A stretch of DNA of 46,294 nucleotides from Burkholderiales bacterium. GTDB lineage: Bacteria > Pseudomonadota > Gammaproteobacteria > Burkholderiales > Casimicrobiaceae. The stretch lies in assembly GCA_014378555.1 (NCBI GenBank), contig JACMNN010000069.1:1-46294 (forward strand). Direction: 5' to 3'. Below the pieces are notes generated by a model that saw only the letters and a list, made by a program, of their open reading frames with translations, had not been told where the DNA came from and searched no databases. Position numbers and translations under genes: made by a program. Shown here piece by piece: positions 5,088 through 23,023 of this stretch; within the stretch, counting starts at the first letter, position 1; each line of letters opens with the position of its first letter.

Positions 5088-6074
5088 ATGTCCATCGCTA
5101 AATCTCACCGTAGTTTGTTTGCCACCTCACTTGCTCTAGTTGCGGCGATTTGCGTTTTGCCGACGGCAGCGCTGCCGACATTCCCCACCAAGCCCATTCA
5201 CTTCATCGTGCCCTACCTGCCGGGCGGCACCACCGATATCGTCGCCCGCACGGTAGCTCAAAAAGTGTCGGAGGCATTGGGCCAACCGGTGATCGTTGAA
5301 AACCGCGCGGGCGCGGGCGGCAACGTCGGCATGGACGCGGTGGCCAAGGCCGCGGCGGATGGCTACACCATTGGCTTTGGCGCGATCTCCACCAATGCGC
5401 TTAACCCGCACGTATACAAATCCATGGCGTTCGATCCGCGCAAGGATTTCGCAGCTATCAGCCTACTTGGTTACTCCACCATCGTGCTTGAAGTGGGCGC
5501 GGACACGCCGATCAAGACGGTGGCCGACCTCATCAGCGCCGCAAAAAAAGCGCCCGGTATGACCTACGGCACCGCCGGCGCTGGCACTTCAATGCATCTC
5601 GCTGGCGTGCTGTTCGCGTTGACCACACAAACGGAGCTCACGCACGTCGCCTACAAGGGCAGCATGCCCGGTATCAACGACATGATGGGCGGCCACATTA
5701 AAGTCATGTTTGACAATCTTCCCGCTTCGCTGCCGCACATCCAGTCCGGCAAATTGCGCGCCCTTGCCGTTGCCGGTGCAGCGCGCTCGCCCTCGCTTCC
5801 TGACGTGCCCACGCTTGCCGAGGCGGGGCTGAAGGGTTATGCAGTTGATCCGTGGTTCGGCGTATTTGCGCCGGTGAATGTGCCTGCTGCAGTGCTTCAA
5901 AAACTGAATCAGGCGTTTGTTGAGGCGCTGGCATTGCCGGAAGTCAAAGAGAAATTGCTGCGAGCCGGGTTTACGCCGAAAAGCTCTTCCTCAGCGGAAC
6001 TCGACGCTTTGGCGCGGACGGAGTTTGAGCGGCTTGGCAAAATTGCTCGCGATGCGCGAATGACTGCGGAGTAG
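5088..6074 (+). CDS. Bug/TctC family periplasmic solute-binding receptor
   Basis: The 328-residue protein has a signal peptide (LFATSLALVAAICVLPTAALP) and the Bug family core: KPIHFIVPYLPGGTTDIVAR, then VIVENRAGAGGNVGMDAVAK, and GTSMHLAGVLFALTTQ. Bug proteins bind carboxylates or other small solutes in the periplasm, and some feed TctAB permeases. No tctA/tctB gene is adjacent, so this is an orphan receptor, common in Burkholderiales. It lies between two terminators and is probably monocistronic. Its ligand cannot be predicted from sequence. Confidence 0.92.
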   Translation: MSIAKSHRSLFATSLALVAAICVLPTAALPTFPTKPIHFIVPYLPGGTTDIVARTVAQKVSEALGQPVIVENRAGAGGNVGMDAVAKAAADGYTIGFGAISTNALNPHVYKSMAFDPRKDFAAISLLGYSTIVLEVGADTPIKTVADLISAAKKAPGMTYGTAGAGTSMHLAGVLFALTTQTELTHVAYKGSMPGINDMMGGHIKVMFDNLPASLPHIQSGKLRALAVAGAARSPSLPDVPTLAEAGLKGYAVDPWFGVFAPVNVPAAVLQKLNQAFVEALALPEVKEKLLRAGFTPKSSSSAELDALARTEFERLGKIARDARMTAE

Positions 6075-6228: not shown

Positions 6229-6234
6229 CTGTTA

Positions 6235-6319
<85 letters not shown>

Positions 6320-6336
6320 ATTTCAAGTTAGCAGAG

Positions 6337-6366
6337 ATTATAGATTGACTACGAAGAAGACTGCAA
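6337..6366 (-). promoter_or_regulatory. Sigma-70 promoter of tRNA-Leu, overlapping the rnr start
   Basis: On the minus strand, TTGCAG (6366-6361) and a perfect TATAAT (6342-6337) are separated by 18 bp. The -10 box lies about 17 nt upstream of the tRNA 5' end, leaving a short leader. The element covers the proposed rnr start codon on the other strand. Confidence 0.7.
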
Positions 6367-8855
6367 AATCAACAGCTTCCAGCGCCTTAATGACGCCCGC
6401 TTCCGCGCCGAAAACGCCGGTCGCCAAGCCAAAAGCACCATCCAGCAAGGCTCGCAAGCCTGCACCTGTAAAACCTGCGGCGGTACCGCTAGCAACTGCG
6501 GAAAAACCCGCGCCGCGTAAGTTGCGCACACAAACGCCAGATGTTGCGGTTGTAATTGAGAAAAAGGCAGCGCTGGCGCCGGTTGTAAAGCCCGCGACGC
6601 GTGCCAAATCGCCAAAGATTGTCGCTCCAACCGCGGTAACCGAGAAGGCGAAAACTCAGTCGGTAGCCGTTGCGAAAGCTTCGAAAGCTAAAAAGCCTGC
6701 GGCTACCCTCCCTCCTCCTGAACCAACAGCTTCCCCTATTGCGGCGCTTGCCGCCACTAGTCGGCCCAAGCGAGTTGCAGCAGACGCGGCCAAACCGGTG
6801 CGCAAGTCAGCATCCACGAAAGCCGTTGCGGACGCAATCGTAGCGACGGTAGTGACGGTAGCGAAGGAAGCAAAGGTAGAGCGGGTGACAGCGCCACCCG
6901 CGTTTGAGCCGCCGCCGATAGCAAAAGCCATCCTTGCGGTGCCACCCAATTCGGTCGTCGGCACCGTCATCGGTCACGCCGAGGGTTACGGCTTCGTCAA
7001 GCTGGATCAAGGCGGTGACGATATGTATTTGTCGGAAGACGCCATGCGCGCTGTATTGCACGGCGACCGGGTGGCGGTGCAGGCAACCGGATTTGGTCGC
7101 GACGGCAAAGCCAATGGCGAGGTCGTTTCGGTGTTGCAACGGGCCAATCATCGCGTCGTCGGCAAGCTGCGCAGCAAGGGCGGGCAGTGGTTTGTGGTTG
7201 CGTCCGAACGGCGCATCAATCAGGACATCCTGATTCCGCGCACCAAGCTTGGCAAGGCGGTGCTCGATCAGATTGTGGTGGCTGAAATTACGTCGCAACC
7301 GACGCCGTATGACGAGGCGACTGGCGAAATTGTGGAGGTCGTGGGTAATGAGGATTCGTCCGACATTGAGCTCGAAATCGCCATTCGCAAACATAATTTG
7401 CCGTATGTGTTTAGCGCCGAAACGCTGAAAGAAGCGGCGGCGTATGGCGATGTGGTGACCGCAGCGGATCGCAAAGGTCGCACTGATTTGCGCGAGCTGG
7501 CGTTGGTCACCATTGACGGCGAGACGGCAAAAGATTTTGATGATGCGGTGTATGCCGAGAAGGCCGCAGGTTCACGTGGCGGCTTCCGGCTAGTGGTGGC
7601 CATTGCCGACGTGTCGCATTATGTGAAACTGAAAACCGCACTCGACAGCGACGCCCGCGAACGCACCACAAGCGTTTATTTTCCGCGTCGCGTGATTCCG
7701 ATGTTGCCGGAAAATTTGTCGAACGAGCTGTGCAGCTTGCGGCCCAATGTCGACCGCCTGTGCATGGTGTGTGACATGCAGGTCACGGCCGCGGGCATCG
7801 TGACCGGCTACCAGTTCTACGCGGCGGTGATGAATTCGAAGGCGCGTTTGACCTACACCGAGGTCGCCGCACAGTTGCCTGATTTGGTTAAAGCCAAACC
7901 GAAAGCAGGCACCATTGAAGCGTCGCTGAAAACACTCTACGCGCTGTATCAGGTGTTTCGCGAAGCACGCGTGCTGCGCGGCGCGCTCGATTTTGAAGGT
8001 CAGGAAGCCGTATTTACCTTTAATGACGACGGCAGCGTGGCGACCATCAAGCCTGCCGTGCGCAACGAAGCGCACAAGCTGATTGAAGAGATGATGCTGG
8101 CGGCCAACGTCAGCACCGGCGAATATTTGGCCAAGGCCAAGCAGCCGCTGCTGTTTCGCGTTCACGATATTCCACTGCCAGAAAAATTGGCGGCACTGCG
8201 CGCAATTCTTGCCATGCGCGGTCTGTCGCTTGGCGGCGGTGAGCGCCCGGAGCCCAAGGATTACGCGCAGCTCATTGATGCCACGCGCGGTCGTTTGGAT
8301 GCGCCCGCGCTGCACACGTTGCTGCTGCGCTCGCTGCCGCAGGCCATCTACACGCCGGACAACGGTGGCCACTTTGGCTTGGCCTATGAGCATTACGCGC
8401 ACTTCACCTCCCCGATTCGGCGCTACCCGGATCTGCTGGTGCATCGCGGCATCAAGGCGGTGCTCGCAGGAAAGATTTACGCAACCGAAGACTGGACGCG
8501 CCTGGGCCTCGTGTGCAGCGCGAACGAGCGACGCGCCGACATCGCCTCGCGCGAAGTCACGCAGTTCCTCAAAGCGAAATATCTCGAGGCGCATATCGGC
8601 GAAGAATTCGTCGGCACCATCTCCGGCGTAGTTGCGTTTGGCGTATTCGTCACGCTCGATGAAACCTTTGCCGACGGCCTGATCCACGCCACCAGTTTGC
8701 CGCGCGACTACTACCAGTTGGGCCGCGACACCTCAACACTGGTCGGGCAACGCAGCGGCTTTTCGCTGGCGCTCGGCGAACGGGTGCGGGTAAAGATTGC
8801 GTCGGTAAATCCCGATACGGCGAAGGTAGATTTCCAGTACGTCGATCGGGCTTAG
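6345..8855 (+). CDS. rnr: Ribonuclease R (3'-5' exoribonuclease)
   Basis: The 836-residue product is an RNase II-superfamily exonuclease that degrades structured RNA. In order it has an Ala/Lys/Pro-rich basic N-terminal extension of about 190 residues, cold-shock-type domains (VVGTVIGHAEGYGFVKLDQG near 200), the catalytic RNB domain with TIDGETAKDFDDAVYAE (acidic residues for Mg2+), HFTSPIRRYPDLLVHRGI, and a C-terminal S1 domain (GTISGVVAFGVFVTLDETFADG). I start it at TTG 6345, since frames further upstream run through the tRNA gene; a weak AGAG lies 8 nt before it. ATG 6390 is the alternative. The long low-complexity basic N-terminus is lineage-typical in style. Ends in ...VDFQYVDRA without a long basic tail. 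Confidence 0.93.
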   Translation: MTTKKTAKSTASSALMTPASAPKTPVAKPKAPSSKARKPAPVKPAAVPLATAEKPAPRKLRTQTPDVAVVIEKKAALAPVVKPATRAKSPKIVAPTAVTEKAKTQSVAVAKASKAKKPAATLPPPEPTASPIAALAATSRPKRVAADAAKPVRKSASTKAVADAIVATVVTVAKEAKVERVTAPPAFEPPPIAKAILAVPPNSVVGTVIGHAEGYGFVKLDQGGDDMYLSEDAMRAVLHGDRVAVQATGFGRDGKANGEVVSVLQRANHRVVGKLRSKGGQWFVVASERRINQDILIPRTKLGKAVLDQIVVAEITSQPTPYDEATGEIVEVVGNEDSSDIELEIAIRKHNLPYVFSAETLKEAAAYGDVVTAADRKGRTDLRELALVTIDGETAKDFDDAVYAEKAAGSRGGFRLVVAIADVSHYVKLKTALDSDARERTTSVYFPRRVIPMLPENLSNELCSLRPNVDRLCMVCDMQVTAAGIVTGYQFYAAVMNSKARLTYTEVAAQLPDLVKAKPKAGTIEASLKTLYALYQVFREARVLRGALDFEGQEAVFTFNDDGSVATIKPAVRNEAHKLIEEMMLAANVSTGEYLAKAKQPLLFRVHDIPLPEKLAALRAILAMRGLSLGGGERPEPKDYAQLIDATRGRLDAPALHTLLLRSLPQAIYTPDNGGHFGLAYEHYAHFTSPIRRYPDLLVHRGIKAVLAGKIYATEDWTRLGLVCSANERRADIASREVTQFLKAKYLEAHIGEEFVGTISGVVAFGVFVTLDETFADGLIHATSLPRDYYQLGRDTSTLVGQRSGFSLALGERVRVKIASVNPDTAKVDFQYVDRA

Positions 8856-10167: not shown

Positions 10168-11142
10168 CTATTCCGGCTTCACGCCGGCTACGCGAATCAC
10201 TTTGCCCCAACGTTCGGTCTCGGCCCGCACAAACAGCTGAAACTCAGCGGGCGCGGCACCGCCGGGCTCCGCGCCCTGATCGGCGAAGCGTTTTGCAAGG
10301 TCAGGGCTGGCCAGTGCCTTCTTCACTTCCGCATACAGTTTGTCGATGACAGGCTGAGGCGTGCCCTTCGGCGCGGCCAGGCCAAACCAGTTGGTTGCGT
10401 TGAAATCTTTCAGTCCTACCTCGGCGGTGGTGGGCACATTGCCGAGGGTGGCAATACGCGCAGGTGAAGTCACGGCGAGCGCGCGAATCTTGCCGCCGTT
10501 GACCTGTGGAATCGCGGTCGGTGCCGCAGTGACAAGAAAGTCTACGCTGCCAGAAACCACGTTCAGCATCGCCTCGCCCGCGCCTTTGAACGGCACATGG
10601 GTAGCATCAATTTTGGCGGCATCCTTAAATAATTCGCCGCCGAGATGGCTAGAGCTACCCACGCCACCCGACCCGTAGTTCAGCTTGCCCGGATTTTTCT
10701 TTCCGAAGGCAACCAGATCCTGCATGGTTTTGTACGGAGACTTTTCGGAGACGACCAAAACCAGCGGCGTCTGCGCGATGCTGGTCACCGCGATCATGTC
10801 TTTGTCGTGGTCCCAGGGCAATTTTTTGAACAGATGCGGCAGCATTGCATACGTCGTGTCGTTGATCTGAAACGTAGTCCCGTCAGGCGGCGATTTGGCT
10901 ACTGCGTCGGTGCCGATGAGGCCACTCGCACCCACCTTGTTTTCAACAAAAAAAGACTTTCCGGTTTGCTCGGTTAGCTTTTGCGCGATCTGCCGTGCAG
11001 CGAAATCTGTGGTGCCGCCGGGTGCGTACGGCACGATCAGTTTGACCGGCTTATCGGGCCAAGCGGTTTGCGCGAAGGCAAATGAGTGAACAAGGGTGAC
11101 CGTAAAAGCCAACGCGGCGCTACGTTTGAAAAGCTGTTTCAT
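10168..11142 (-). CDS. Bug/TctC family periplasmic solute-binding receptor
   Basis: The 324-residue product has a signal peptide (SAALAFTVTLVHSFAFAQ) and the Bug core: KPVKLIVPYAPGGTTDFAAR, FFVENKVGASGLIGTDAVAK and GVGSSSHLGGELFK. It is the fourth gene of the catabolic operon, 46 nt after another Bug gene. No TctAB membrane genes are present. The two Bug copies in this operon are clearly different in sequence, so they may bind different ligands, or one may be a sensor-type receptor; that is inference. Confidence 0.92.
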   Translation of the reverse strand: MKQLFKRSAALAFTVTLVHSFAFAQTAWPDKPVKLIVPYAPGGTTDFAARQIAQKLTEQTGKSFFVENKVGASGLIGTDAVAKSPPDGTTFQINDTTYAMLPHLFKKLPWDHDKDMIAVTSIAQTPLVLVVSEKSPYKTMQDLVAFGKKNPGKLNYGSGGVGSSSHLGGELFKDAAKIDATHVPFKGAGEAMLNVVSGSVDFLVTAAPTAIPQVNGGKIRALAVTSPARIATLGNVPTTAEVGLKDFNATNWFGLAAPKGTPQPVIDKLYAEVKKALASPDLAKRFADQGAEPGGAAPAEFQLFVRAETERWGKVIRVAGVKPE

Positions 11143-11188: not shown

Positions 11189-12166
11189 CTATTCGACTTT
11201 GACCCGTGCCACCTGAATCACTTTGCCCCACTTCTCCTGCTCGGCACGCTGAAAGGCAGCCAGCTTTTCGGGGCTGCCGCCCACCGGCACCGCGCCGAGG
11301 TCGGTTAGACGCTTGGCGACGGCGGGCTTCTTGAGCGCTGCATCAACCTCTGTCGCGAGCCGCGCAACAATGTCAGCCGGCGTGCCCGCAGGCGCGTACA
11401 GCGCGTACCAACTCGAGGCTTCAAAATCTTTCATGCCGAGCGCTTCGCCGACCGTCGGCACATCGGGATAGTCGGCAAGGCGCTCTGCTGTGGTCACGGC
11501 GAGCATTTTTAGGCGACCGCTTTTCACGAACGGCGTGCTGGTTAGCAAGGTGTCGAACATCAACTGCACCTGACCAGCCACCACATCAGCAATCGCTGGG
11601 CCTGAGCCTTTGTAAGGCACATGCGTCATCACGGTGCCGGTACGGAATTTAAAAAATTCAGGCACCAGATGCGATGAGCCGCCATTTCCCGCGGAAGCGA
11701 AATTAACTTTGCCCGGATTGGCCTTCAGATAACTCACCAGTTGTGGCAACGTCTGCACTGGCAGCACGCTCGTGTTGGCCACCACGACGATCGGCACGGT
11801 GACCACCAGCGACACCGGTGCGAAGTCCTTGTTAGCGTCATACGGAATTTTTTCGTGCAGACGCGGATTGATGCCCATGGTGCCGATGCTCGCCATCATC
11901 AGCGTGTAGCCGTCGGCCGGCGACTTCGCGGCCTCACTGATGCCAATGAAGCCATGTGCGCCGCTTTTGTTGTCGATAATCACCGAAGTCTTTAACGCTT
12001 CGCCGATGGCCTGACCAACCACGCGGGCGGTGATGTCGGTCGGGCCGCCCGCAGGGAACGGCACGATGATGCGGATCGGTTTATTCGGCCACTGCGCGTA
12101 GGCGGGCTGCAGCGAAGCCGCGAGCAGCAGCGATACCGTCAGTAACTTTAGTAATGTGCGTTTCAT
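11189..12166 (-). CDS. Bug/TctC family periplasmic solute-binding receptor
   Basis: The 325-residue product has a signal peptide (TVSLLLAASLQPAYAQ) and Bug motifs: KPIRIIVPFPAGGPTDITAR, VIIDNKSGAHGFIGISEAAK, GNGGSSHLVPEFFKF and HVPYKGSGPAIADVVAG. Its ATG overlaps the CoA-transferase stop codon as ATGA, a classic translational coupling. That places an extracytoplasmic binding protein directly in the same translational unit as a CoA-activating enzyme, suggesting it captures the substrate of that enzyme. Confidence 0.92.
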   Translation of the reverse strand: MKRTLLKLLTVSLLLAASLQPAYAQWPNKPIRIIVPFPAGGPTDITARVVGQAIGEALKTSVIIDNKSGAHGFIGISEAAKSPADGYTLMMASIGTMGINPRLHEKIPYDANKDFAPVSLVVTVPIVVVANTSVLPVQTLPQLVSYLKANPGKVNFASAGNGGSSHLVPEFFKFRTGTVMTHVPYKGSGPAIADVVAGQVQLMFDTLLTSTPFVKSGRLKMLAVTTAERLADYPDVPTVGEALGMKDFEASSWYALYAPAGTPADIVARLATEVDAALKKPAVAKRLTDLGAVPVGGSPEKLAAFQRAEQEKWGKVIQVARVKVE

Positions 12167-14362: not shown

Positions 14363-14471
14363 CTAGTTCTTACAGATGAAATTATTGTTTGCGCCGATAA
14401 GCTTGTCAAGCGCGACGCAGCTACGTTGCCACGTGCTTATGTGCCGATATCTTGAAATTTCGGAGCCACCC

Positions 14472-15239
14472 ATGCCACGCAAAGCGCAAACCCCTTCCAT
14501 CGCCGATCAAAACGCTGCCGATGGTGGCGTCGCCGCGGTCGACCGCGCGCTGTCGCTGCTCGCCACGTTTTCAGTGGCGCAAAACGCATTGACGTTGGCC
14601 GAACTGGCGGAGCTGACGCAGCTTTACAAAAGCACGGTGCTGCGCCTGCTCGCCTCGCTGCTGCATCGCGGACTGGTGCAGCAACGCAGCGACGGGCGCT
14701 ACGCGTTGGGGCCTGAGGTTGCGCGCCTGCACGCCGCCTACGCCAGCTCGTTCTCGCTTGCCGAGGTAGTGTTGCCGGTGCTGCAATCGCTGGTGGATGT
14801 CACCCGGGAGAGTGCGGCCTTCCACGTGCGACAAGGGCAAGCGCGGCTGTGCCTGTATCGCGTCGACTCGCCGCATCCGGTGCGCGACCATATCAAGGCG
14901 GGCGATCTGTTGCCGATTGATCGCGGTGCTGGAGCGCGAGTGCTCGATGCGTTCGCCGCTAAGCAGGATCGGTTGCCGGGCCAGCGCAACGCGGCACTTG
15001 CGAAAGCGGTGGTAGAGCGCGGCTACTTTGCCGGCATAGGCGACCGTGAGTCGGAGGTCGCCGGAATTTCAGCCCCGGTGTTTGCCGCAGGCGGCCAACT
15101 AGCCGGTGCGCTCACACTCACGGCACCGGCCAATCGCTATCAGGTGTCGCATGTGCCCGCCGTTCTTGCGGCGGCGGCGGCGTTGGGTAAGGCTCTTGGC
15201 CACCACGGGGCGACCTCAGTTGCGGCGCAAATCGTATGA
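14472..15239 (+). CDS. IclR family transcriptional regulator
   Basis: The 255-residue product has an N-terminal winged helix (AAVDRALSLLATFSV, then LTLAELAELTQLYKSTVLRL) and a C-terminal GAF-like effector domain (VTRESAAFHVRQGQARLCLY ... GISAPVFAAGGQLAGALTLT). I chose ATG 14472: a GGAG site lies 6 nt upstream and the longer frame adds an unlikely N-terminus. Divergent arrangement with the HMG-CoA lyase/CoA-transferase/Bug operon makes that operon its probable target, with a pathway carboxylate as likely effector. Whether it represses or activates cannot be told from sequence. Confidence 0.9.
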   Translation: MPRKAQTPSIADQNAADGGVAAVDRALSLLATFSVAQNALTLAELAELTQLYKSTVLRLLASLLHRGLVQQRSDGRYALGPEVARLHAAYASSFSLAEVVLPVLQSLVDVTRESAAFHVRQGQARLCLYRVDSPHPVRDHIKAGDLLPIDRGAGARVLDAFAAKQDRLPGQRNAALAKAVVERGYFAGIGDRESEVAGISAPVFAAGGQLAGALTLTAPANRYQVSHVPAVLAAAAALGKALGHHGATSVAAQIV

Positions 15240-15281: not shown

Positions 15282-15830
15282 ATGAATCACGCCCCATTCG
15301 CCGCCGCTGAAATCGTACAGTTCTGGGCAGACGCCGGCCCCGGTCGCTGGTTCAAAAAAGACGCTACGTTTGACGACCAATTTCGCGAGCGATTTGCGGT
15401 GGCGCATGAGGCCGCCGCAGGTGGTGCGCTCGACCATTGGGCGCTTCGCGCCGAGGGTGCGTTAGCGCTCATGATTTTGCTCGATCAATATCCGCGCAAC
15501 AGTTTTCGCGGAACGGAGCGGATGTTTGCCACCGACGCGAAAGCGTTAAGCCTCGCGAAACAGGCGATTGCGCAGGGCTTCGATCAGGCGGGCGATACGG
15601 CATTGCGCCGATTTTTCTATTTGCCGTTTATGCACTCGGAAGCGTTGGCGGAGCAAGATCGATCGATCGAGCTGTATGCGCCGATCGGCGCTGAGCCGAT
15701 GCGCTTCGCGGTCCTACACCGCGACATCATTGCGCGTTTTGGCCGCTTTCCGCATCGCAATGCGCCGCTTGGGCGAGCGACGACGGTTGACGAACAGGCG
15801 TTTCTCGATGCCGGCGGATTCGCCGGTTAG
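15282..15830 (+). CDS. DUF924 family protein
   Basis: The 182-residue helical protein carries the DUF924 signatures FWADAGPGRWFKKDATFDDQ at the N-terminus, ALMILLDQYPRNSFRGT in the middle and FFYLPFMHSE towards the C-terminus, and is of normal family length. Proteins of this family are soluble with a TPR-like fold; biochemical function is not established. The gene is intact here, whereas a second copy of its 3' end survives as a stub at 18968-19102. The part from about 15676 onward belongs to that duplicated block, which continues into a dead serB copy. Confidence 0.88.
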   Translation: MNHAPFAAAEIVQFWADAGPGRWFKKDATFDDQFRERFAVAHEAAAGGALDHWALRAEGALALMILLDQYPRNSFRGTERMFATDAKALSLAKQAIAQGFDQAGDTALRRFFYLPFMHSEALAEQDRSIELYAPIGAEPMRFAVLHRDIIARFGRFPHRNAPLGRATTVDEQAFLDAGGFAG

Positions 15831-16590
15831 CGCCACAACATCGATAGTTGGACGTCTCCCCGCAGCCACCGCGAACTGCCTACAACTGCGCGCCCTGACT
15901 GCCGCCCCACGCCAACGTTCTTCCCGCGCACCTCGCCATCCCGATTGCTGAAGTAGGCCTGATCGCCATCAGTATCGAATGCATTGACGAAATTGCCGAT
16001 TTTGCGGGCGTCCAGGCCGAAGTGTCTGCGATCATTAAGACGGCAATGCGCGGTGAACGCAATTTTCAGCAAAGTCTGATCGCGCGCGTCGCTTGGCTGA
16101 AAGGTCTGTCGACGGCGGTGCTAACCGAGGTCTACGAATCACGCCTTTGACCCTCGCTAGGGCTTGCCGAATTGATGGACTACGCACACAAAAACAACGT
16201 TGAGACGTTGCTAGTTTCGGGGGGGACTCACCTACTTCACCGAGCGCATGCGGCAGCGTTTTGGCTACACCTACACCCGCGCCAACACCTTGGGCGAACG
16301 CTAAGGACGGCTTACAGGCGGCGTTTGCGGCGCGATTATCGATGTCGAAGAAAAAGTGCGTTTGCTGCGTTTTTTGGCGAGCACGTTGCCCGCCTCGCGC
16401 GGGGCAACCATTGCGATCGGCGATGGGGCCAACGATCTGCCTATGCTCAAAGCCGCCACAATGGGCGTTTCATTTCACGTGAAACCCACGGTGCGTGAGC
16501 AAGTGAAAGTGGCGATCAATGAGCGCGGATTAGACACGCTTCTTGCGTTTCTGCCCTGATTGCCGAGAACCTTCTCCGTTTCACTTGTTT
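15676..16590 (+). repeat. Direct repeat copy 1 (DUF924 3' end plus serB)
   Basis: This block of about 0.9 kb matches 18968-19880 in the same orientation, from the motif TGCGCCGATCGGC inside DUF924 to roughly 30 bp past the serB stop. In this copy DUF924 is intact and serB is dead. Limits are estimated by eye. Confidence 0.85.
15882..16559 (+). pseudogene. Degenerate serB (phosphoserine phosphatase) copy
   Basis: This stretch aligns over its whole length with the intact serB at 19167-19850 but is broken. A 21-nt gap after about 15967 removes exactly the segment encoding MDMDSTA, which contains the nucleophilic aspartates. An in-frame TGA stands at 16148-16150 (CTTTGA where the intact copy has CTTCGC), an extra base lies in the G run near 16219-16226, and a TAA at 16302-16304 replaces a sense codon. 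The 3' part still encodes the recognisable IAIGDGANDLPMLKAATMGV in another frame. The original ATG context is also changed. It cannot yield a working phosphatase. It follows the intact DUF924 gene directly. Confidence 0.93.
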
Positions 16591-16814
16591 AAAATAGCGA
16601 CTGACGCCAGCATCCGGTACGACAAAAAAGCATCAAGATTTCTCCTAGCCCACACAGTCCGCTGGCATGTCGAGAGAGCTTAGTCACTGCGGCATAAACC
16701 AGTCCAAGTTTTACGCAGAACCCCGTATCTTGGCGAAACAAAATGGCAGCACGCGACGATGCGTTTTGCTCATCAAAAGTTGCTCTGGTGATCCAACAAC
16801 TTGAGGAAAATTTT

Positions 16815-18860
16815 TTGATAATCAGAATTAAGCGACTTGTGCTTGGCATTGCCTGCGCAGGTCTTCTATCCATTTATGGCTGCGGTGGTGGTGGTGGTGG
16901 TGACGCTGGTGGTGGCGGGAGTATTGTTGCAGGGCCAAGCGCTGTGATGATTCAAGGTACCGTCGCAACCGGTGCAGCCTTTCTTGACGCGGTTGTCACC
17001 GTCCGAGACCGCACCGGTGCCATTGCCGGCACAAGTTCGCCCGTGGGCACCGATGGCGTCTTTATCGTTACGCTCGCAGACGGCACCAATCCACCGTATG
17101 TGTTGGTGGCCAACCGCACCACCGCTGCAGGGGAAGTTCAGACCATGGTCAGCGTGGCAGAGTCGGCTTCTGCGACTACAGCCAACATTACACCCATCAC
17201 CAACCTGATTGCCTCGCGCCTTTCACCCACCGGCGACCCTCTCAAGCTGGTCAGTGAATTTGTCGCCGGCACCGCCACAATAACGCCGGCAGCGGTCGTG
17301 GCGAGCGTTGCGGAAATTAACAAAATCTTAACTCCGTTGCTGGTAGCGACCGACACTACAGGGGCGGATCCGCTGAAAAGCGCTTTTTCAACCAACGGCA
17401 GTGGCTATGATCGTTTACTGGATTCGCTCAAGATCACTATTACGCCGACCAATGCGTCTTCCACCAATATTGAAATCGCCGTTAAGCAGAAACTGCTGGA
17501 AGGCATGCAGCCCACGGTAATTAAGTTTGTCAGCAGTGCGACCAACTTGCCTTCTCTGCCTCCCATTGACCGCGCAAACTTAGTCACCTCCGGCACCTCT
17601 GTCCTGATTGCCGATTTACTGAAAAGTCTCAGTGCCTGCTACGCGCTGCCACTGGCTAGCCGAGTCGATACCGCAGGCACCGGAGTCGCAGCAGACATCA
17701 GGGCAACTACCTGCAAAAGCCTATTTTTCGGCAACAATCCTGCAAACTTTAGGAGCGACGGCGACGTCGTTGGCTCAGACAAGCTGTTCAGCGGAATGTT
17801 TACCACTAGCGGCTCCGGCACAGTCTTCAGCCAAGGCAGCTATGAGGCTACGCAGGGCAACGGTGATCTGGTTGTAGGATACAAAAGCCAAGACGCTGGC
17901 GGGAACGGGGGTTTTGATACTTTTGTTGTACGCATCGATACCGATGGAAAGCTCAAGTTAATCGGCAACCAATATCAGTACCCCGGTGGTGTTGCCGCGT
18001 ACCACCAGTTTCGTCAATTCATCACGCTGAACCAGTCCGCCTACAACTACTACAGCACGGGCTACAACATGAACTTCCCCGACGTCAAAGGCGGTCGCGG
18101 TGTAGCTTCCTCGATATTTGATCGTGTGGTGGTTACAACACCTAACGGCGCTTCCGTCACCCTTAAGCCAAGCGCGGGTAAGTCGCATTTGAATTTGGTG
18201 AAGTCCTCGGTGGTCACCGGCACCAGCTATCTCAGGCTGCGCAGCGTGTTTGCAGACAGTGCGACCGTCGGAGACATTCCCACAATGGACTCCAACCTGG
18301 TCTTTTCCAACATCCCCTTTACAGATCAGGACGTTGCATACATTGCAGCACAAAGCGTCTGGACTTTTAGCTACTATCTAGCAGCAAACACCGCGCCGAA
18401 TGGGGCAGCTGATGCCACCCAGTATTTCAAAACGCGAGCCCGGGCACTGACGATAGAAGAGCTCAAGCGTCAAGGGCTGCCGCAGCTGTCCCCCACTCTC
18501 ATCAGCGCGATACAAGCCAAAACCAGCGTGTACCCAGGGCATGCACCCTTGCCTACCGACGGCCCATTGAGCGGTTTGGACTTTTCTGTGCCATCAGGCA
18601 CCTTGCCAGTGTCGCGAATTAAACTCTTTGGACGCCTTAATCTCGCCACTGATGGTCAAATTTTTGATGAATCGGTCGAAGTCGGGCTAACTGCAAGAAC
18701 CGGCAGCATCGCCTGCACGGCAGTAGGCAGCGCTCGCTGTGGCTTGGCCGGCGCGTTTGCCGCCTCAACCTATGCCACTGGACTGCATTTGTATTCCCTC
18801 GACGCAGCCGGCCGGGAGTTTATTAATTTTTATGCGATGTATCAGTTGATCAAGCCGTAA
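16815..18860 (+). CDS. Large lipoprotein of unknown function
   Basis: The 681-residue product starts at TTG 16815 (GAGG ribosome site 8 nt upstream). This gives a proper lipoprotein signal peptide, MIIRIKRLVLGIACAGLL then SIYGC with the lipidated Cys near residue 23, followed by a flexible Gly-rich linker GGGGGGDAGGGG. The in-frame upstream extension to 16743 lacks signal-peptide character. The mature part is Thr/Ser/Ala-rich; its first region (VMIQGTVATGAAFLDAVVTV) resembles a carboxypeptidase-regulatory-like Ig fold, seen at the start of many Burkholderiales surface lipoproteins. The remainder is not recognised. Two C-terminal cysteines (ACTAVG and RCGLAG) could pair. The gene is flanked by the two halves of the DUF924-serB duplication. 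Confidence 0.75.
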   Translation: MIIRIKRLVLGIACAGLLSIYGCGGGGGGDAGGGGSIVAGPSAVMIQGTVATGAAFLDAVVTVRDRTGAIAGTSSPVGTDGVFIVTLADGTNPPYVLVANRTTAAGEVQTMVSVAESASATTANITPITNLIASRLSPTGDPLKLVSEFVAGTATITPAAVVASVAEINKILTPLLVATDTTGADPLKSAFSTNGSGYDRLLDSLKITITPTNASSTNIEIAVKQKLLEGMQPTVIKFVSSATNLPSLPPIDRANLVTSGTSVLIADLLKSLSACYALPLASRVDTAGTGVAADIRATTCKSLFFGNNPANFRSDGDVVGSDKLFSGMFTTSGSGTVFSQGSYEATQGNGDLVVGYKSQDAGGNGGFDTFVVRIDTDGKLKLIGNQYQYPGGVAAYHQFRQFITLNQSAYNYYSTGYNMNFPDVKGGRGVASSIFDRVVVTTPNGASVTLKPSAGKSHLNLVKSSVVTGTSYLRLRSVFADSATVGDIPTMDSNLVFSNIPFTDQDVAYIAAQSVWTFSYYLAANTAPNGAADATQYFKTRARALTIEELKRQGLPQLSPTLISAIQAKTSVYPGHAPLPTDGPLSGLDFSVPSGTLPVSRIKLFGRLNLATDGQIFDESVEVGLTARTGSIACTAVGSARCGLAGAFAASTYATGLHLYSLDAAGREFINFYAMYQLIKP

Positions 18861-18967
18861 TCACCGCAATCTTGCTGCAGCGCCTGCGCAACATGCCGGT
18901 CAAAGGTCCTGATTCAGCTCGGGGTTTTTATACTCTCTGGTCCGGCAATCGGCAGGATGTTCGCGTG

Positions 18968-19102
18968 ATGCGCCGATCGGCAATGAGCCGATGCGCTTCG
19001 CGGTCTTGCACTGCGACATCATTGCGCGTCAATGCGCCGCTGCGACGAGCCACAACAGCTAAAGAACAGGCGTGTCTCGATGCCGACGGATTCGCCGGCT
19101 AG
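18968..19102 (+). pseudogene. DUF924 3'-end remnant
   Basis: Only the last part of DUF924 remains: it encodes EPMRFAVLHCDIIAR and, after a 20-nt deletion that shifts the frame, a tail matching LDADGFAG up to the TAG at 19100-19102. The intact parent-like gene is at 15282-15830. Confidence 0.85.
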
Positions 19103-19166
19103 TTTCGCGGCATCAATCGCTGGACGTCCGCCCGCAGCCACCGCGCACTGCCTACAATTGCGCCCC

Positions 19167-19850
19167 ATGACTGCCGCCCACGCCAACCTGCTTCCCGCGC
19201 ACCTCGCCATTCCGATTGCCCAAGTTGGCCTAATCGCCATGGACATGGATTCGACCGCCATCACTATTGAATGTATTGACGAAATTGCCGATTTTGCGGG
19301 CGTCAAGGCCGAAGTGTCGGCGATCACTGAGGCGGCAATGCGCGGTGAACTTGATTTTCAGCATAGTCTAATCGCGCGCGTCGCCTGCCTTGAAGGACTG
19401 TCGACGGCGGTGCTAACCGAGGTCTACGAAGCACGTCTTCGCCCCTCGCCGGGGCTTGCTGAATTGATGATCTACGCGCACCAAAACAACGTTAAGACGT
19501 TGCTAATTTCGGGTGGTTTCACCTATTTCACTGAGCGCATGCGGCAGCGTTTTGGCTTCACCTACACCCGCGCCAATACGCTGGGTGAACGCGACGGACG
19601 GCTCACCGGCGCCGTTTGCGGGGCGATTGTCGATGCCGAAGAAAAACAGCGGTTGCTGCGTTTTGTGGCGAGCACGCTGCCCGCCTCGCGCAGCGCAACG
19701 ATTGCGATTGGCGATGGGGCCAACGATCTGCCGATGCTCAAAGCCGCCACCATGGGCGTTGCTTTTCACGCCAAACCCACGGTGCGCGAGCAAGTGAAAG
19801 TGGCGATCAATGCGGGCGGATTAGACACGCTTCTCGCGCTAATGCCCTAA
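19167..19850 (+). CDS. serB: Phosphoserine phosphatase
   Basis: The 227-residue HAD-superfamily enzyme performs the last step of serine biosynthesis, hydrolysing phosphoserine in the cytoplasm. Motif I is AMDMDSTAITIECIDEIADF (nucleophile Asp26 and Asp28), motif II ISGGFTYFTERM (Ser), then the conserved RANTLGERDGRLTGAV, and motif IV AIGDGANDLPMLKAATMGVA. It lacks the N-terminal ACT-like domain of E. coli SerB (322 residues), like many short homologues. I chose ATG 19167 (MTAAHANLLPAHLA) because the upstream frame is the DUF924 remnant. A broken paralogue lies at 15882-16559, so this is the only functional copy in the window. Confidence 0.92.
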   Translation: MTAAHANLLPAHLAIPIAQVGLIAMDMDSTAITIECIDEIADFAGVKAEVSAITEAAMRGELDFQHSLIARVACLEGLSTAVLTEVYEARLRPSPGLAELMIYAHQNNVKTLLISGGFTYFTERMRQRFGFTYTRANTLGERDGRLTGAVCGAIVDAEEKQRLLRFVASTLPASRSATIAIGDGANDLPMLKAATMGVAFHAKPTVREQVKVAINAGGLDTLLALMP

Positions 19851-19945
19851 TTGCTCACAACTTATTCCATTTGAACTCGGTTTTTTGCACGCCGTTTGCT
19901 AGACTTTTGTCCTGTGAGGGACACCGCTTTTCCTCGGAGAAAATT

Positions 19946-22900
19946 ATGAAACTTAAATCATCTAACGCCGCGCTGGCCATTCTGTTGGGCGGCGCGTCGA
20001 TTGTCACGCCCGCGGCCGCTCAAGACGCGGCAAAGCCCACACCCGGTGCAGCGCTTCAATATGTTGGCGCCGACACCCGCCTGGGCATCGGCTATGACAG
20101 CCAAACCAAGCTACGCGGCGAATTGTTTCAGGTGTTGCGCAGCGACGAACAGTCCGCCACTCTTGCCGAAATCTGGGCCAGCCGCGACTCCGGTGGCGCC
20201 AAGCTTTCGCACCATTGGAGCGGCAACGGCAGCTCGGTCAATAAGGTTTTCGGGGCGCTCGATCAGGGCGCTGGTGACATGCGCAAGGCCTCGCTCGGCG
20301 GCGGTCAGGAATACGAACAATGGTTTTGGAACACCTACCTTAGCAAGGGCCTCAGCGGCGCACGGCTGACCGGTACGGCGGCCATCGCAAGCACCATTAT
20401 TCAGTCGGGCACAGACGCCGGACGGCCCTACGCTGAAGACGTCACCACGACCGTCACCACGCGTTCGTTTCAGCGTCCGTATGACTGGGGCGTGGGCGCA
20501 CGGGCCGGTCATTTCTACGAATCCGCTTTGTTGCGCGTTACCGCGGGTGTTGACTACGAATGGGGTAAGTTCTCATCCAGGCAATGGACGGGTACGCTGA
20601 TGGCCGAAAAATTCTTTGCTGGATCGCCTATTTCGGTCGCCATCACCGGTGAAATTAATCGCCGCTCCGGTGACTTTGAAGGCGCCCGCAACGATCAGCG
20701 CGGCTTGGTCATGTTGCGCTACGAATTCGGCGGGCCGAGGACAAATTTCCGTCCGAACCGGGTGACCCGCAGCGTGACCACCACCGAGCGCGTGCCCGAT
20801 CCGAATTGGCGGCCCGCGGTCGCCGCCGTTGTAGCGCCTGCCGCAGCGCCAGTCGCAGCGGTTGCCGCTGTCAGCAAGCCGGTCGAGGCAACCACGCGCA
20901 TCGAAAAACGCGTCACTCGCGCCAATGCAAACGATGCGCAGGAAACCTATTTCGATCTCGGCTCTGCCAAACTTAAACCGGCAGCGCTTAAAGAACTCGA
21001 CGCGCTGGTCGTTCGCATCACCACCCAGCGGCCCTATGTAGAGCTTAAAGTCGACGTTGTCGGCCACACCTGTCCGACCGGCGCGGATCGCGACAACGTA
21101 CTGCTGTCGGCCAAACGTGCCGACGCGGTCAAGGCGTATCTCGTCGCAAAGGGCATACCAAGCGAATTGGTGACCGCCAGCGGCAAAGCAGGCCGATCGC
21201 CGAAGTATCCTGAAGTTAAAGGCCAGAGCTTCCGCAATCGTCGCGCCGACACTGAAGTTTCGATCGTTAAAGAGAAAATCGAAGAGGTCCGCGTTACAGT
21301 GCCCGGCACAGCGGCAACAGCGGCCGCCACGCCCGTAGCGCCGGTTGCACCTCCCGCAGTTGTAGCCGCCCCGGCGACCGCACCCATGATTGAGCGTCAA
21401 GTCACGCGAGACATCGTTGAAGACGTGCCAAACGGCTGGATCTCACGCGCGCTGCACAATCCGGCGCAACACAAAACCAGCGTCGACAGCTACCGCTGGT
21501 TAGAGGCGAGCACGGCACAAGCCACGGGGCCACGTCGCTTCATCAATCGCGGCCCGGCCGCAGTTAACGACGCGTACACCATCGATTGCGCAGCCCCGGT
21601 CACGTTTAACGTGCTCGCTAACGATAGCGATCCTGATGGCGACGCGCTGACGATCACCTCAGTGTCAACACCGTCCAAAGGTACGGTCGCTATTTCTGGC
21701 GGACGGATCGTCTACACACCAAGCGCTTCCAGCTGCGGTGGTGCGACCGATAGCTTCACCTACAACATCAGTGATGGCAAAGGCGGCACCGCCACTGCAT
21801 CGGTAGCAGTGACCATTAACAACACGACGCCGATCAATACACCGCCGGTGGCAGTCAACGATGCCTACACCGTTAATTGCTCGACACCGAGAGCCTTCAA
21901 CGTGCTGCTGAATGACAGCGACAAAGACGGCGACAAGCTCACCATTACCTCGGTTTCCATGCCGGGCAAAGGCACGGCAGTCATCTCGAATGGCAACATC
22001 GTCTACACCGCTGCGGCAAATACGTGCGGCGGTGCAACCGACAACTTCACCTACAGCATCAGTGATGGCAATGGCGGCACCAGTACAGCAACCGTTGCAG
22101 TGACCATTAACAACACGACGCCACCGCCACCAGCGAATACCGCGCCGGTTGCAGTCAACGATGCCTACGCCATTAATTGCGGGGCCGCGAGCACGTTCGA
22201 CGTGTTGTTGAATGACAGCGATAAGGACGGCGACAAACTCACCATCACCTCGGTTTCAGCACCGGGCAAAGGCAGCGCAGTTATCTCCGGCGGAAAAATT
22301 GTCTACACCCCAGCGGCAAACACCTGCGGCGGCGCGACCGACAGCTTCACCTACAGCATCAGCGACGGCAATGGCGGCACCAGTACAGCAACCGTTGCAG
22401 TGACGATCAACAACACGACGCCACCGCCGCCAGTGAACGTAGCGCCGGTGGCCGTCAACGATGCCTACATCGTAGATTGCTCGGTAGCCAACACGTTTAA
22501 CGTGTTGTTGAATGACAGCGACAAGGACGGCGACAAACTGACCATTACCTCGGTTTCAACGCCGGGCAAAGGCACCGCGGTCATCGCAAACGGCAACATC
22601 GTCTACACCGCAGCGGCCAACACCTGCGGCGGCGCAACCGACAGCTTCACCTACAGCATCAGTGACGGCAAAGGCGGCACAGCGACCGCAACGGTAGCCG
22701 TGACCATCAGAAACACGCTCCCGGTTCTGCCCGCCAATAATGCCCCGGTTGCGGTGAACGATTTGTACATCGTGCCATGTCGTACCGGCGCAGTGCTTGA
22801 CGTGCTCACCAACGATAGTGATCGGGACGGCGACCCACTGACCATCACCTCGGTCAGAGCAATTTCGCAATCGTCAGTCGCCTTGCTGTCGATCAGCGCG

Positions 22901-23023
22901 GATAGAAGAACACTTACGTACACCCCTGGCGCGTCCTGCTTTGTGACTGAGATGTTCAGCTACACCATTAGCGACGGCAGGGGCGGCACAGCAACGGCAA
23001 CGGTCACGCTGATTGATCCGTAA
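19946..23023 (+). CDS. OmpA-domain surface protein with five tandem Ig/cadherin-like repeats
   Basis: The 1025-residue product starts at ATG 19946 behind GGAG; the longer frame upstream only overlaps serB out of frame. It has a signal peptide (AALAILLGGASIVTPAAAQ), an N-terminal beta-rich domain with barrel-like strands (to about residue 265), an Ala/Val/Pro linker, and an OmpA/MotB peptidoglycan-binding domain at about 332-447 (ETYFDLGSAKLKPAALKELD ... RNRRADTEVSIV). After a second linker come five tandem domains of about 97-100 residues with FNVLLNDSDKDGDKLTITSV and SFTYSISDGNGGT, the pattern of Ig/cadherin-like repeats of large surface proteins. Each repeat has two cysteines. The DxDxDGD loops suggest Ca2+ binding. 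Putative outer-membrane anchor or adhesin. Confidence 0.85.
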   Translation: MKLKSSNAALAILLGGASIVTPAAAQDAAKPTPGAALQYVGADTRLGIGYDSQTKLRGELFQVLRSDEQSATLAEIWASRDSGGAKLSHHWSGNGSSVNKVFGALDQGAGDMRKASLGGGQEYEQWFWNTYLSKGLSGARLTGTAAIASTIIQSGTDAGRPYAEDVTTTVTTRSFQRPYDWGVGARAGHFYESALLRVTAGVDYEWGKFSSRQWTGTLMAEKFFAGSPISVAITGEINRRSGDFEGARNDQRGLVMLRYEFGGPRTNFRPNRVTRSVTTTERVPDPNWRPAVAAVVAPAAAPVAAVAAVSKPVEATTRIEKRVTRANANDAQETYFDLGSAKLKPAALKELDALVVRITTQRPYVELKVDVVGHTCPTGADRDNVLLSAKRADAVKAYLVAKGIPSELVTASGKAGRSPKYPEVKGQSFRNRRADTEVSIVKEKIEEVRVTVPGTAATAAATPVAPVAPPAVVAAPATAPMIERQVTRDIVEDVPNGWISRALHNPAQHKTSVDSYRWLEASTAQATGPRRFINRGPAAVNDAYTIDCAAPVTFNVLANDSDPDGDALTITSVSTPSKGTVAISGGRIVYTPSASSCGGATDSFTYNISDGKGGTATASVAVTINNTTPINTPPVAVNDAYTVNCSTPRAFNVLLNDSDKDGDKLTITSVSMPGKGTAVISNGNIVYTAAANTCGGATDNFTYSISDGNGGTSTATVAVTINNTTPPPPANTAPVAVNDAYAINCGAASTFDVLLNDSDKDGDKLTITSVSAPGKGSAVISGGKIVYTPAANTCGGATDSFTYSISDGNGGTSTATVAVTINNTTPPPPVNVAPVAVNDAYIVDCSVANTFNVLLNDSDKDGDKLTITSVSTPGKGTAVIANGNIVYTAAANTCGGATDSFTYSISDGKGGTATATVAVTIRNTLPVLPANNAPVAVNDLYIVPCRTGAVLDVLTNDSDRDGDPLTITSVRAISQSSVALLSISADRRTLTYTPGASCFVTEMFSYTISDGRGGTATATVTLIDP
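21559..23020 (+). repeat. Five in-gene tandem repeats, 300-bp period
   Basis: Repeat starts are marked by VAVNDAY-like codons near 21559, 21850, 22150, 22450 and 22750. The last four steps are exactly 300 bp and the first 291 bp. Units 2-4 are the most alike at DNA level; unit 5 is more diverged. Such arrays change copy number by recombination. Confidence 0.9.

Follow-up and report, generated by a model that had tools for sequence, protein, structure and literature searches.

The question raised by this locus is whether a gene has moved. In the window, by which we mean the whole stretch of 46,294 nucleotides that was analysed (contig JACMNN010000069.1 of a Burkholderiales draft genome, 274 contigs, 87% complete), the end of a DUF924 gene and the serB gene occur twice. 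The first-pass annotation had read this arrangement as a duplicated pair that was split by reciprocal decay, with relocation of a gene as the outcome. Local alignment placed the two copies of the direct repeat at 15676-16581 (copy 1) and 18968-19872 (copy 2), both on the + strand; of the 884 ungapped columns, 766 are identical (86.7%), and there are 43 gap columns. The 2386 bp between them agree with the two same-orientation blocks of about 0.9 kb, 2.4 kb apart, that had been described. Copy 1 was also recovered with copy 2 as the query in a search of the genus (16 congeners) at an E value of 2.6e-282, far beyond chance. The repeat starts inside DUF924, such that only the last ~155 bp of this gene are within it. 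Copy 1 consists of the 3' end of DUF924 followed by a serB pseudogene, while copy 2 consists of a DUF924 stub followed by an intact serB gene.

The intact DUF924 gene (15282-15830, + strand, 182 aa) gave a full-length match to PF06041 (residues 11-179, profile positions 1-180 of 180, E 1.3e-56); no paper was found on DUF924 by that name. The intact serB gene (19167-19850, + strand, 227 aa) encodes a predicted phosphoserine phosphatase. Its match at 19167-19847 scored above the TIGR00338 family cut-off (216 versus 144.15 bits) and below the own cut-off of NF008350, the other equivalog (244.5 versus 413). These profile matches, together with the lesions described below, bear out the earlier description of DUF924 as intact and serB as dead in copy 1, and of serB as intact and DUF924 as a stub in copy 2. 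The lipoprotein gene that had been placed between the copies was likewise found there, as an open reading frame at 16743-18860.

The serB pseudogene of copy 1 (15895-16559, + strand) carries several inactivating changes relative to copy 2. Its start codon is CTG instead of ATG, two 1-bp insertions lie inside the gene, and a TGA near 16148 and a TAA near 16302 are present in the frame of copy 2. A 21-bp deletion near 15960 takes out the residues DMDST, which we take to be HAD motif I (DxDxT), the catalytic motif; these residues are retained in the surviving serB of copy 2. Changes in the two serB copies were polarised using seven congeners. At codon positions 1, 2 and 3, respectively, 19, 10 and 21 changes were assigned to copy 1 and 7, 2 and 19 to copy 2, with one undecided. 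The spread over codon positions did not differ significantly from uniform in copy 1 (p = 0.13) but did in copy 2 (p = 0.0003), and the two patterns differed from each other (p = 0.035). These results show that the serB gene of copy 1 lost constraint and decayed.

The DUF924 stub of copy 2 (18968-19102, + strand) has a different character. Alignment to copy 1 showed that it starts at codon 132 and contains a 20-bp internal deletion. Its first 62 bp are 92% identical to copy 1. Over the 135 aligned columns of the DUF924 tail, 0, 1 and 4 changes at codon positions 1, 2 and 3 fell in the intact gene of copy 1 and 5, 3 and 4 in the stub, although these numbers are small. Upstream of the repeat DUF924 extends over 394 bp, but the stub (18968) follows the stop codon of the lipoprotein gene (18860) after only 107 bp; ~290 bp or more of this 5' sequence must therefore be absent. 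The 107-bp leader itself did not resemble DUF924 beyond shuffled sequences, 443 of 1000 of which were as good (score of 9.5 versus a shuffle mean of 9.4). Its top-scoring local alignment was collinear with DUF924 (roughly 15612-15651 versus 18925-18966), and DUF924 residues 109-153 matched 18904-19032 with an E value of 5.5e-5 and one stop, a match that reaches ~60 bp to the left of 18968. When the collinear stretch was considered alone, 190 of 2000 DNA shuffles and 287 of 2000 protein shuffles were as good, and a protein comparison with the whole of DUF924 residues 1-131 gave 1237 of 2000. None of these results is significant; the first two give a weak hint that a short eroded piece of DUF924, some tens of bp long, may lie immediately before 18968. 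A search of the same genome for a second copy of this leader found none that was convincing (best other E value 0.017). As most of its 5' part is absent, we conclude that the DUF924 gene of copy 2 was cut rather than eroded in place. Loss was therefore asymmetrical and not a reciprocal decay as had been claimed: serB of copy 1 decayed, whereas most of the 5' part of DUF924 in copy 2 was either never copied or deleted, perhaps early and from a copy that was once whole. The related proposal of a split by complementary loss holds in that each gene survives once, from different copies, and fails in that the loss of DUF924 was not a matching decay.

A serB tree was built from the two copies and 13 congeners. 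The three others were G007, which had no serB match, G002, whose serB gene is divided between contigs, and G016, which at a protein identity of 67% is the most diverged of the congeners. The two copies were sisters with an ultrafast bootstrap of 100. At codon positions 1 and 2 the branch of copy 1 was ninefold longer than that of copy 2 (0.098 versus 0.0105), whereas the third-position branches were similar (0.159 and 0.109, respectively). The divergence between the copies, from which it had been proposed to date the event, was thus obtained both as the overall identity given above and as these third-position branches; the latter place the duplication at about one fifth of the age of the split from G015 and G001, a rough ratio drawn from branch lengths that are near saturation.

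Gene order in the 16 congeners was compared to determine where each gene belongs. A serB gene was present in 15, and an OmpA-like gene followed it in all 15; in G002, it was the contig piece with the 3' end of serB that was followed by the OmpA-like gene. DUF924 and serB were on one contig in 6 of the 16, one of which had only a DUF924 remnant. In G005 and G015 the two genes were direct neighbours, without a recognisable gene in between, the adjacency that the first-pass annotation had proposed to look for in relatives. In G011 they were on different contigs. DUF924 matches of 40-47% identity were found on a contig other than that of serB in G002, G006, G009, G010 and G014, G007 had a DUF924 match (44%) and no serB match, and no DUF924 match was found in G003, G008 or G016. 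Because the serB copies are sisters and the DUF924-serB pair occurs in G005 and G015, the two blocks represent one local duplication.

On the left side, the RNase R gene was upstream of DUF924, adjoining it in G005, G013 and G011 and further off in G015, G012 and G004 (partial match). In the window, the RNase R gene (6234-8855, + strand, TIGR02063 at 736.6 bits with a cut-off of 597.85) forms the left anchor of the block. It is separated from DUF924 by a catabolic block, partly common to G012, that includes the immediate left neighbour of DUF924, a gene for an IclR-type regulator (14376-15239, + strand, PF09339/PF01614). An IclR gene also adjoins DUF924 in G012, and only in G012 among the loci compared. 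On the right side, the intact serB gene is followed by a gene for an OmpA-like protein with tandem-95/Big_9 repeats (19946-23023, + strand, PF00691, PF17963 and NF012211), and the 95 bp between the two genes align with G005 and G015, while the similarity of copy 1 stops at 16581. Judged from gene order, the DUF924-serB pair is ancestral, at least to the depth of the closest relatives in which it occurs, and the same comparison places the intact serB gene at its ancestral position beside the OmpA-like gene and the intact DUF924 gene on the RNase R side. As serB keeps the OmpA-like neighbour that it has in 15 of 15 congeners and DUF924 keeps the RNase R side, neither surviving gene has moved, which contradicts the claim of gene relocation. 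Instead, a spacer of ~3.3 kb was added between two old neighbours.

The spacer contains two further elements. The first, which the first-pass annotation did not record, sits between the dead serB and the lipoprotein gene and is the right-end remnant of an IS3-family element (16603-16724, + strand), comprising the 3' end of a transposase gene and the right terminal inverted repeat. This segment is 80% identical to a second copy in the same genome (G000:C254:6650-6775). When this second copy was used as a query against 40 genomes, including its own, the only matches were the window piece, G035 (74%) and G027 (73%). The G035 match corresponds to the right end of L205, an IS3-family element that looks intact, with inverted repeats of 25 nt at 80% identity and an IS3-family transposase of 508 aa (NF033516, 385.1 bits versus a cut-off of 160). 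Aligned to L205, the window piece stops within the right inverted repeat, at 16724. In G027, no transposase gene was found among the open reading frames of at least 80 aa surrounding the match. The element in the window is incomplete: similarity begins at 16603 and only the last ~122 bp are left. As its left end and target duplication are missing, any role assigned to it is guesswork. No promoter-like site was found in 16550-19180 (0 versus 1.5 expected) that would suggest transcription from the IS end. With the whole spacer as a DNA query against the same number of genomes (40, own included), nine genomes had short matches besides the spacer itself and the C254 IS end; eight of these matched a GGT-repeat stretch near 16880-16920 and G034 matched over 28 bp. 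Beside the second IS-end copy, IS3-type transposase fragments are close together in L203:3353-6790 (G000:C254), one with an rve_2 match at the cut-off and one an open reading frame recognised by eye without a Pfam match.

The second element is the putative lipoprotein gene (16743-18860, + strand), encoding 705 aa from the ATG at 16743 or 680 aa from a TTG at 16818. The TTG, which follows GAGGA, is the more likely start; after it comes a hydrophobic stretch ending in LSIYGC, a candidate lipobox as judged by eye. No family was found for the protein in Pfam or NCBIfam. Among solved structures there was one weak match, to residues 85-233 (9i0e_A, 'Lipoprotein cytochrome c', E 3.4e-7), and the CxxCH motif is absent from the protein. 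Its location in relatives, the remaining point that had been proposed for comparison, gave a uniform answer within the genus, as none of the 16 congeners had a match. The other 23 genomes of the same search gave weak matches in G018, G026 and G032 to parts of residues 29-194. In a sample of the order, 21 of 399 genomes (own included) had any match, and near-full-length relatives were found in 3 of the 398 other genomes (G563, 47%; G756, 42%; G729, 35%). A sample of the class gave only partial matches, in 12 of 369 genomes (own included), and plasmids gave only partial matches of 26-27%, in 3 of 72,556 records. The third-position GC content of the gene (0.586) is the lowest of 13 genes in the window, the others ranging from 0.633 to 0.704. 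The likeliest origin of the lipoprotein gene is horizontal acquisition from outside the genus, the alternative being that it was lost in all of the congeners.

The ends of the repeat were examined for sequences that could have mediated the duplication. No flanking repeat of at least 20 bp that would explain it was found at the repeat ends, the longest shared words there were 3-4 bp, the same as in shuffled sequences, and there was no identical base directly outside either end. Nor did any direct or inverted repeat at the borders of the lipoprotein region score better than shuffled sequences (666 and 397 of 1000 as good). The lack of a 20-bp repeat and of microhomology beyond chance points to illegitimate recombination. 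According to PMC11111574, many natural bacterial duplications are not mediated by sequence identity.

The anatomy of the locus is very probably explained by duplication of the end of DUF924 and serB, with the outer ends remaining in place and the redundant DNA between them filled later. The ancestral DUF924-serB pair stood between the RNase R gene on the left and the OmpA-like gene on the right. A tandem duplication in this lineage, shown by the repeat and the serB tree, included the complete serB gene and the final 155 bp or more of DUF924; the outer ends, DUF924 on the left and serB with the OmpA-like gene on the right, did not move, as the gene order in relatives shows. All of the DNA between the intact DUF924 gene and the right-hand serB would then have been redundant, so that decay, IS insertion and a new gene would have cost nothing there. 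The IS3-family element and the acquired lipoprotein gene, both of which are present, would have arrived in this redundant spacer. The 5' part of the second DUF924 gene either was never duplicated or was deleted when the IS element or the lipoprotein gene arrived. With regard to the order of events, we infer that the more plausible course was a stepwise one, namely duplication followed by insertion, and we hold this part of the account with less confidence than the anatomy itself.

The principal competitor of the stepwise course is a one-step additive integration, in which a single crossover or an unequal exchange between sister chromosomes brought in DNA that carried an IS3 end, the lipoprotein gene and a segment homologous to serB. 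The insert starts no more than ~20 bp beyond copy 1 and finishes at copy 2, and limits that coincide with the repeat ends are no less compatible with a single step than with later insertion at random. Foreign DNA enclosed by a long repeat, with native flanks outside, is also the topology expected of additive integration, and transformation-driven tandem duplication by unequal exchange, with incomplete IS copies as the repeats, is described in pneumococcus (PMC3784515). An incoming serB from a different species should, however, have given copies that are not sisters and a copy 1 branch that looks constrained, but the copies are sisters with an ultrafast bootstrap of 100 and the branch of copy 1 looks relaxed. 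The sister relationship would still be compatible with a donor of the same lineage. We regard one-step integration as possible but unlikely.

Duplication of the complete DUF924-serB pair followed by complementary decay, that is, the gene relocation originally proposed, is improbable. This model does account for the survival of each gene once, from different copies, and for the relaxed change in both dead pieces, and the weak collinear hint of DUF924 just to the left of the stub also speaks for it. On the other hand, there is no room for at least ~290 bp of the DUF924 5' part, which must have been deleted or never copied, while the adjoining 62 bp of the stub are still 92% identical, and the outer neighbours of the two intact genes are still the ancestral ones. 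Still less credible is an assembly artefact in which the repeat joins two strain variants: the window does come from a fragmented draft of 274 contigs, but the longest exact word common to both copies is 33 bp, their divergence is 13%, and the third-position and pseudogene patterns are biologically coherent. Two independent unrelated insertions, the case that the first-pass annotation had named as contrary to its reading, can be dismissed, as no support was found for them and they are contradicted by the ancestral DUF924-serB adjacency in G005 and G015 and by the sister serB copies.

The preferred reading, duplication with a spacer filled later, resembles tandem duplication by illegitimate recombination followed by pseudogenisation in the lack of border repeats and microhomology, the native outer flanks and the decay of one serB copy; it differs in the IS3 end and lipoprotein gene at the junction. 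Transformation-induced merodiploidy in Streptococcus pneumoniae, as described in PMC3784515, likewise involves one intact and one inactive copy as well as incomplete IS copies. The duplications reported there are repeat-bordered and extend over ~100 to ~900 kb, whereas the unit here is 0.9 kb, a single IS remnant was found at the locus, and such a mechanism would be putative here. Duplication-and-loss changes of gene order also start from an ancestral pair and keep each gene from a different copy, but here the order relative to the outer neighbours is unchanged and only a spacer was added. The locus is best regarded as a clean, small example in which redundancy after duplication provided a harmless landing site for an IS element and an acquired gene. 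It also illustrates that two split repeat halves need not mean a moved gene, for which the neighbours in relatives should be checked. This is ordinary bacterial genome evolution, and no new mechanism is implied.

Genes other than DUF924 and serB occupy the gap between the two in several congeners as well as in the window: a DctP-type gene in G001 and a hexapeptide-repeat gene in G004, G012 and G013, in addition to the lipoprotein gene described here. Family assignments come from a scan for the G013 hexapeptide gene and the G001 DctP gene, and from reading of the translations for the hexapeptide genes in G004 and G012 (the three hexapeptide genes lie at L072:8007-8735, L070 about 8300-8840 and L071:10161-10685). 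A gene similar to the hexapeptide-repeat gene is found upstream of DUF924 in G015 or of its remnant in G001.

In G001, where a DUF924 remnant and the DctP-type gene are near serB, the remnant next to serB (L068:8479-8630) starts at the position corresponding to 18968 when G015 is used as the reference. By this reference the break falls at the second base of the same Tyr codon as in the stub of copy 2, and with copy 1 as the reference it falls 6 bp later. A common origin of the two stubs was considered and rejected: the sequences upstream of them are unrelated (837 of 1000 shuffles as good), and the G001 serB groups with that of G015 (support 98). The sequence before the G001 stub compared with the DUF924 5' part gave 109 of 1000 shuffles as good, and the match was not collinear. 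If breakpoints were spread evenly over the 546-bp gene, the chance of such a coincidence would be ~3 in 546 (within one base) or ~13 in 546 (within six bases), figures that apply to two cases noticed after the fact. It is doubtful that codon ~132 of DUF924 is a recurrent recombination breakpoint; if it were, a fragile or integration site within DUF924 would explain both truncations and the recurrence of other genes in the gap.

Two minor observations concern the surrounding genes. The OmpA-like gene at 19946-23023 has five Big_9/tandem-95 repeats, seemingly about three more than the genes of the congeners, which mostly align over residues 1-719 with the other repeats mapping back onto the same stretch. 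In addition, the window encodes three paralogous proteins (5088-6074, 10168-11142 and 11189-12166) that all match one G012 gene at 39-81% identity, and two of these are adjacent to each other, beside CoA-transferase and HMGL-like genes.
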